DNA from: Candidatus Omnitrophota bacterium
Lineage (GTDB): Bacteria; Ratteibacteria; UBA8468; B48-G9; DTJG01
Assembly (NCBI GenBank): GCA_023818375.1
Contig: JAMWCC010000089.1
Span: 1-34,720, forward strand
Direction of reading: 5' to 3'
DNA length: 34,720 nucleotides
Shown here: positions 9,807 through 10,344 of the stretch, piece after piece
Layout of the letters: each line of letters opens with the position of its first letter
Position numbering within the stretch: the stretch's first letter is position 1
Notes under the pieces: model-generated
Told to the model about the DNA's origin: nothing
The model's database searches: none
What the model saw: only the letters and a program-made list of their open reading frames with translations
Translations under genes and position numbers: made by a program

Positions 9807-9812
9807 ATTATT

Positions 9813-9978
9813 GCCTGTCCCGTGCGCAGGCGGAGTGTGAAACTTTGAGCCAACACCAATAAAGAGGGAGCCAAGTCTGACATACAAGACATGCCGGAAA
9901 CGGAAGTCGCGGTGTTCAGCGAGGCACCCACTTGTTAATACGGGTCTCAAAAGTTGCACTGCCTACGGCGGGACGGGT
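9813..9978 (+). ncRNA. ssrS: 6S RNA (SsrS-like)
   Basis: 10-bp terminal stem gcctgtcccg (9813-9822) / cgggacgggt (9969-9978, two G-U). 3' segment ACGGGTCTCAAAAGTTGCACTGCCTACGGCGGGACGGG resembles the 3' strand of E. coli 6S RNA (GGGUUCAAGGGUUACAGCCUGCGGCGGC); 5' segment has TTGAGCCAACACC. ~166 nt with a good upstream promoter. Confidence 0.83.
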
Positions 9979-9990
9979 AAAAGTTTAGAT

Positions 9991-10072
9991 GGGTAGGTGG
10001 CCGAGTGGAAATGGCAGCAGACTGTAAATCTGCCGGCGTAAGCCTACGGAGGTTCGAATCCTCCCCTGCCCA
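9991..10072 (+). tRNA. tRNA-Tyr (anticodon GTA)
   Basis: Acceptor GGGTAGG/CCTGCCC, anticodon loop CTGTAAA, long class II variable arm, T-arm GGAGGTTCGAATCCTCC, discriminator A; CCA not encoded. Confidence 0.95.
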
Positions 10073-10081
10073 CTTTGAAAA
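10055..10081 (+). repeat. Direct repeat copy 1 (tRNA-Tyr 3' end plus flank): cgaatcctcccctgcccactttgaaaa
   Basis: Identical 27-nt string at 10188-10214. Confidence 0.95.
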
Positions 10082-10214
10082 TCTGGGGTATAGGAGGATT
10101 CGAATTGGAGCGAAGACGTATAGGTGCGAGCAAGTGCGAGCACCTGTGCGGATGGCCGACCCGAGCCGTAGTGGGAGGCAAGGGCGCCGAATCCTCCCCT
10201 GCCCACTTTGAAAA
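10082..10214. mobile_element. Small GC-rich palindromic element associated with the tRNA-Tyr 3' end (candidate non-autonomous element)
   Basis: Visibly GC-rich insert in an AT-rich background, flanked by the 27-nt direct repeat; terminal 10-bp inverted repeat ggaggattcg (10093-10102) / cgaatcctcc (10188-10197); internal repeated gtgcgagca. No protein-coding signal. Confidence 0.55.
10188..10214 (+). repeat. Direct repeat copy 2 of the tRNA-Tyr 3' end
   Basis: Exact 27-nt match to 10055-10081, offset 133 bp. Confidence 0.95.
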
Positions 10215-10228
10215 AGGAATTCAATAAT

Positions 10229-10299
10229 GCGGGGTTAGTTTAGTGGCAAAACATCAGCCTTCCAAGCTGATTATACGGGTTCGATTCCCGTACCCCGCT
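10229..10299 (+). tRNA. tRNA-Gly (anticodon TCC)
   Basis: Acceptor GCGGGGT/ACCCCGC, anticodon loop CTTCCAA, T-loop TTCGATT, discriminator T; CCA not encoded. Confidence 0.95.
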
Positions 10300-10344
10300 C
10301 TTAAAGTTTTTAATTGAAAAACATTTCTACCAGGGAGCATCTAA

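Follow-up and report, generated by a model that had tools for sequence, protein, structure and literature searches.

The 34,720-nucleotide stretch analysed here (the window) contains a tRNA-Tyr gene whose 3' end is repeated a short distance downstream, and the question raised by this locus is what the element between the two copies is and how it is related to its tRNA. A sequence-only reading had offered two answers, a non-autonomous palindromic element mobilised in trans or a structured RNA, restoring in either case the tRNA 3' end on insertion. The features of the locus are listed below.

9991..10073, + strand: tRNA-Tyr (gta), the host tRNA; the element mirrors its T-arm (ARAGORN and Rfam)
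10074..10095, + strand: trailer, from the tRNA 3' end to the left arm (sequence; trailer list of 57 loci)
10096..10104, + strand: left arm GGATTCGAA, reverse complement of tRNA-Tyr T54-C62; the match runs left to about 10093
10105..10187, + strand: structured core without ORF, with conserved GGAGCGAAG, AGCGG, GGCCGA and tandem GA (48-unit alignment; 24-row alignment A1)
10122..10145, + strand: P2 hairpin AGGTGC/GCACCT, which covaries between copies
10160..10184, + strand: P3 hairpin CCC-GA-GCC-GTAGTGGGA-GGC-AA-GGG (both partners change in 5 of 6 pairs)
10188..10214, + strand: right copy, the tRNA-Tyr 3' end from C56 to the end of the tRNA, plus 8 nt of trailer (27-nt exact repeat)

The element unit in the window comprises positions 10096-10194. 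The direct repeat of 27 nt was exact at 10055-10081 and 10188-10214, with 133 bp between, and the 10-bp inverted repeat ggaggattcg was located at 10093-10102, where it pairs both with 10188-10197 and with the T-arm of the tRNA itself (10055-10064). The segment CGAATCC of the right copy pairs with the left arm, and in a repeat search the pairing between element and tRNA extended to 19 nt at 84%. What had been seen as a duplication of gtgcgagca is the P2 hairpin, AGGTGC-GA-GC..GC-GA-GCACCT. In P3 of the window copy the tandem GA reads GA/AA, GA being conserved in other copies. No ORF of 80 aa or more lies over the element, in agreement with the sequence-only reading, and the tRNA stays intact with the element present, as the proposed restoration of its 3' end implied. 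Trailers at the other loci (list of 57) are T-rich, often with ..TTCTTTGAAA. A 6S RNA (RF00013) was found at 9809-9983, immediately upstream of tRNA-Tyr, while tRNA-Gly (10229-10300) and a putative trigger factor gene, so named from its sequence and the gene order, lie downstream of the element.

Distribution behind tRNA genes

The DNA search returned a dozen core copies in the genome of the window, nearly all situated about 20 nt behind a tRNA and in one orientation; the host genes were Tyr, Ala-ggc, Arg-ccg, Leu-taa, Leu-caa, Leu-cag, Leu-tag, Ser-tga, Ser-cga and Val-gac. The tRNA survey added units at Val-cac, Gln-ctg and Ser-gga. Most of the 43 tRNAs found in this genome have neither a unit nor an inverted T-arm. 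The covariance model built from 24 units matched 29/35 genomes of the phylum (Omnitrophota/Ratteibacteria-like) and 0/25 genomes outside it. Among 20 model hits from divergent genomes, 18 stood directly behind a detected tRNA, one behind a tRNA 3' end recognised by eye, and one was an orphan. The exact motif occurred in 22 public contigs, all of them from genomes of uncultured organisms carrying the label Omnitrophota, Ratteibacteria or simply "bacterium", and the window was assigned to that phylum on this basis. In 2.9 million viral contigs the motif, searched as an exact pattern, was absent, and a virus origin was rejected on this result. The tRNA kinds served by the family are Tyr, Ala, Arg, Leu, Ser, Val, Lys, Met, His, Gln, Asp, Gly, Glu, Trp and Asn. 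The element is thus neither single-copy nor absent from relatives, and its other copies likewise adjoin tRNA 3' ends; chance and an assembly artefact are both ruled out by the 12 core occurrences in one genome, together with the independently assembled relatives and the phylum-wide architecture.

None of the Rfam families fits the element; an sX4 hit at one locus was discarded, being essentially the tRNA part of that locus. The core itself is not uniform. Many genomes carry an extra optional domain of about 63 nt, GGTTGCCAATGCGATGAAGAAAGAGCATTG..GCGGGCCGG (L008, L070, L092, L210 and others), and in a variant seen at L157, L206 and L098 the core begins with GGAGCGGTGCTGGTGCGATGAAGAA instead of GGAGCGAAG. 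Behind tRNA-Arg-tcg, at L136 and L056, a second, unrelated core occurs on the same plan, with the antisense T-arm CGATTTG; at L136 a 38-nt direct copy stands beside it, and the Arg-tcg unit in the genome of the window is a relic. Since these genes carry a different core, the plan is not restricted to one core. The element in the window most likely belongs to a new phylum-wide family of tRNA-trailer elements resembling the RtT units of E. coli, unnamed so far as we have searched.

Arms, helices and the host tRNA

All units follow one plan, in which a T-rich trailer is succeeded by a left arm antisense to the T-arm of the unit's own tRNA, a core of about 85 nt, and the 3' end of the tRNA once more, in sense orientation. 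The arms were compared at 57 loci picked by core only, using the six bases that precede the core. At 54 of the 57 the arm was the reverse complement of positions 57-62 of its own tRNA, with 13.2 matches expected; 2000 runs with permuted tRNAs gave a mean of 13.2 and a maximum of 25. A larger set gave 77 matches in 84 loci, and the seven non-exact arms consisted of four with GA for TC, i.e., a tandem G.A (three Lys-ttt and one Asp), two with G.U and one with a mismatch. Orthologous tRNAs with differing T-arms each had a matching arm (three types at Ala-ggc, three at Lys-ctt, two at Leu-cag and two at Arg-ccg), and the arm had changed along with the T-arm between species also at Leu-caa, Leu-taa, Met and Gly-gcc. 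One genome held identical cores with swapped, compensated arms, GGATTT..AAATCC and GGAGTT..AACTCC. The palindrome is no constant terminal repeat; it differs from tRNA to tRNA and is complementary to the T-arm of each. Pre-existence of the hairpin at empty sites was considered and dismissed, the empty tRNAs being without an inverted T-arm (in most, runs of 3-6 nt). The literature searched, which was largely open-access, contained no account of target-matched arms.

The proposal that the element is structured was borne out, the core carrying two covarying hairpins (P2 and P3) and a conserved tandem G.A. In A1, an alignment of 24 units with rows chosen for matching arms, the arm and P3 helices were paired in 99.7% of cells and 7 of 12 pairs changed on both sides; the covariation score was 0.406 against 0.136 for shuffled alignments (0/500 shuffles as high), and sliding the helix partners abolished the covariation. 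Because the rows had been preselected for the arm match, the independent evidence consists of the P3 helix and the 57-locus comparison. Among right copies, counting the last or only unit per locus, 13 were mismatched in the acceptor part (66-72) only, and one was altered in the pairing part only, by an insertion. Hence the arm helix is maintained while the remaining copy drifts. Full units remain paired, and drift was seen only in truncated ones (L018, L208).

It was further considered that the repeats have no function at all and owe their palindromic form to mutation, template switching homogenising the arms and gene conversion spreading the repeats. Homogenisation of inverted-repeat arms in this way is known (PMC8604942), the covariation observed here is Watson-Crick only, and exchange between loci is visible in the family (L107, below). 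Against this stand the tandem GA/GA mismatches, which are conserved between helices that vary and have not been corrected away, and the core motifs conserved across a phylum; we regard a purely mutational origin as highly improbable.

The sense strand was predicted to fold better than the antisense strand in 48/48 units, a prediction that favours the tRNA-sense strand acting in single-stranded form, as RNA or DNA. G.U pairs were found in 3/567 cells of P2 and P3 versus 15/350 in the corresponding tRNA T-stems. Given the bias of the helix finder towards strong pairs, this scarcity is a hint only, fitting pairing at the level of DNA at least as well as at that of RNA. In ViennaRNA calculations, which are crude and misfold many bare tRNAs, the left arm often favoured its own T-arm (mean probability 0.47) over the right copy (0.11), and pairing of this kind would disturb the tRNA. 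The element may also be read as a cis-acting RNA switch on tRNA maturation. In one state the left arm would pair with the T-arm and keep the tRNA from folding, in the other it would pair with the right copy and release the tRNA, the core deciding between the two. Two mutually exclusive helices on one strand, both seen as states in ViennaRNA, and the constraint on arm pairing are consistent with a switch, as is the tract GAA, invariant in the 24-sequence alignment, which is complementary to TTC of the T-loop and has no partner in the right copy. The elements are, however, freely gained and lost between species and missing from most tRNAs of any genome, tandem copies would be redundant, and no ligand or protein is known. 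A switch of this kind appears improbable to us.

Comparison with known systems

The RtT RNA, or tyrT 178-bp repeats, of E. coli constitutes Rfam family RF00391. Behind tyrV of E. coli K-12 lie three units of 178 bp, each composed of trailer, GGGGAAGGAT-GA-GAAGCTTCGA, core and AATCCTTCCCCCACCACCA (= RtT), and 19 of the 22 bases of GGGGAAGGAT-GA-GAAGCTTCGA equal the reverse complement of the T-arm region of tRNA-Tyr. RtT at tyrT and tyrV shares with the present family the tandem units, the antisense T-arm (GGGGAAGGAT-GA-GAA..), a hairpin core (with CCCGAAGGGCGA) and a copy of the tRNA 3' end, there 19 nt. In both, the unit stands behind a tRNA gene and ends in that copy, and in both, going by the Rfam structure of RtT, a closing helix joins the antisense arm with the tRNA-end copy. 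The same plan was found in E. coli at proK (arm GAGGAT), at lysT/W/Y/Z/Q/V (GTGTAGGAT or a close variant) and at argQ/Z/V (GGGAGGAT or a close variant), every arm agreeing exactly or nearly with the tRNA of its locus, and also at Klebsiella proK and Providencia lys. Thus the defining trait of the family, arms matched to each tRNA, holds for RtT too. The other E. coli tRNA genes that were examined (e.g., asn, gly, gln, met, leu, val) had no such unit. Four K-12 loci at lys, pro and arg genes (L257, L258, L260, L261) carry RtT-type units with no RtT annotation in the record.

The RF00391 model gave no match to the window stretch at E up to 5, none to 18 loci at E up to 0.5, and none to the family in 60 whole genomes at 0.01, where the E. 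coli control was positive. Consequently our claim is limited to an element that works like RtT, not one that is RtT, homology being unproved. There are also differences in extent. RtT has been described mainly in enterobacteria and Pasteurellaceae, whereas the present family was detected in 29/35 genomes of a different phylum, behind a much wider range of tRNAs; the antisense stretch of RtT at tRNA-Tyr spans about 22 nt and has GA in place of TC, against 9-12 nt, mostly exact, here; and the trailers of the E. coli units are 26-60 nt long, compared with about 20 nt. A Pasteurellaceae species is reported to carry RtT members next to its tRNA genes for Asn and Lys (PMC4986893), and rtT-like sequences have been linked to BIMEs (PMC2965389). 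In E. coli the RtT RNA is released in tRNA processing, according to PMC4986893, which cites Bosl and Kersten (1991). Because RtT, closest in design to our element, is by that account an RNA released from tRNA transcripts, the structured-RNA alternative of the sequence-only reading fits better than the mobile element.

Other small repeats share single traits with the family. REP, BIME and REPIN sequences are likewise small, multi-copy, palindromic and extragenic, but the family is tied to tRNA 3' ends, its arms vary by locus, and Y1 transposase is missing from the genome of the window and from many carriers. Integrative elements that target tRNA genes by a tyrosine integrase, with attB in the tRNA 3' end, also duplicate that end and restore the tRNA; the family differs from them in its size of about 100 bp, the lack of an integrase, the use of many tRNAs rather than one attachment site, and the inverted T-arm copy. 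MITEs are short and non-coding, with terminal inverted pairing and flanking duplication as here, while the inverted terminus of the family is target-derived and varies by locus. Since that terminus is not constant, a transposase would find no common terminal repeat to act on. As regards derivation from a retroelement or group II intron, reverse transcriptase was missing from the genome of the window.

Gain, exchange and origin of the units

Units have been gained and lost between related species, and their presence is patchy. Empty sites, expected if the element had been inserted, exist in relatives, and syntenic pairs of empty and filled sites were found at Tyr, Val-tac, Arg-ccg and Gly-tcc. 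Units often stand in tandem arrays of two or three, and many contigs end within such arrays. At L107 a tRNA-Gly array holds a unit with a Val-like tail, which is direct evidence of exchange between loci. The filled Val-tac site L028 has the T-arm TTCAAGTCCTGC, as in Val-gac, and differs from the empty orthologues L067, L138 and L141; this suggests that the 3' half of the tRNA was converted together with the element. At tRNA-Arg-ccg of genome G001 (L121), the duplicated tRNA 3' end flanks a decayed core of 37 nt and a further unit follows. In the genome of the window, an island for Type III restriction-modification, comprising Mod in two ORFs, an AAA_14 ATPase and Res, was found at about 740-7480 of L197 (G000:C78:7800-17000). 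It is flanked by the tRNA-Ser-cga element and an orphan element copy 6.9 kb further along, and its edges carry 49-nt inverted repeats. Elements may act as recombination points for defence cargo.

Such patterns may also be expected of a non-autonomous mobile element. A staggered cut at the T-arm would duplicate the 3' end and trailer (about 20-40 bp), the enzyme acting in trans and the arm being either copied from the target or a guide to it. In favour are the direct repeat formed by the tRNA 3' end, the empty orthologous sites, the near-identical cores at many sites and the patchy presence among species, together with a target preference: C62 with C/T63 was present in 84/84 filled tRNAs versus 50/88 empty ones (p = 6e-14). 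The search for a mover, for which the negative results rest on draft genomes, gave little in return. The unit has no ORF for an integrase. Y1 (RAYT) transposase (PF01797) was found neither in the genome of the window (G000) nor in carriers G002, G005-G010, G019 and G024, several of these being incomplete; reverse transcriptase (PF00078) occurred in 2/22 genomes searched, neither of them G000; G000 has only two tyrosine recombinases, Xer-like as judged by number alone; and IS110 gave two matches in G000 and was present in a minority of carriers only. Y1, reverse transcriptase and IS110 were consequently rejected as partners, none being present in all carriers, and only the ubiquitous tyrosine recombinases are shared. 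Insertion resembling that of integrons or CRISPR was considered because the duplicated stretch measures 20-45 nt, with no enzyme evidence among the families searched (Y1, tyrosine recombinase, reverse transcriptase, IS110). In addition, ends that vary with the target are not a trait of ordinary elements, and full units keep their pairing. Hence the earlier mobile-element reading stands as to copy number, linkage to tRNAs and empty sites, but its trans-mobilisation through an integrase or transposase is unsupported, no candidate enzyme being common to the carriers; we hold a mobile element of this sort to be unlikely.

Our preferred reading, to which we assign a probability of roughly 0.55, is an RtT-like tRNA-trailer module, amplified and dispersed by recombination, with its arms supplied by the host tRNA. 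By analogy with RtT in E. coli, the element would be co-transcribed with the tRNA and freed by tRNA 3' processing. Tandem copies would arise from unequal recombination between tRNA-end repeats, cores may be exchanged or spread between tRNA genes via recombination or replication template switching, and the recipient tRNA would either provide the arms or be the template to which they are corrected, so that an element-borne enzyme would not be required. The observations are most economically explained by a processed trailer RNA together with recombination and template copying. For the first insertion behind a new tRNA, recombination alone gives no explanation. More tentatively, and with a good deal of doubt, the units may represent a class of tRNA-addressed elements in at least two distant phyla, in which the arm is copied anew from each host tRNA, a templated self-retargeting, possibly acting also as a switch in tRNA maturation.

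For decades RtT stood alone as a poorly understood peculiarity of tRNA operons in E. coli. With the same blueprint in a distant phylum, and with tRNA-matched arms, it becomes a class with a rule. For annotation there is a practical warning, as the arrays break assemblies and mimic duplicated attachment sites. The rule of the class, an antisense T-arm, a core and a sense tail copy, predicts members elsewhere, and it raises the question of how an element takes its sequence from its target.
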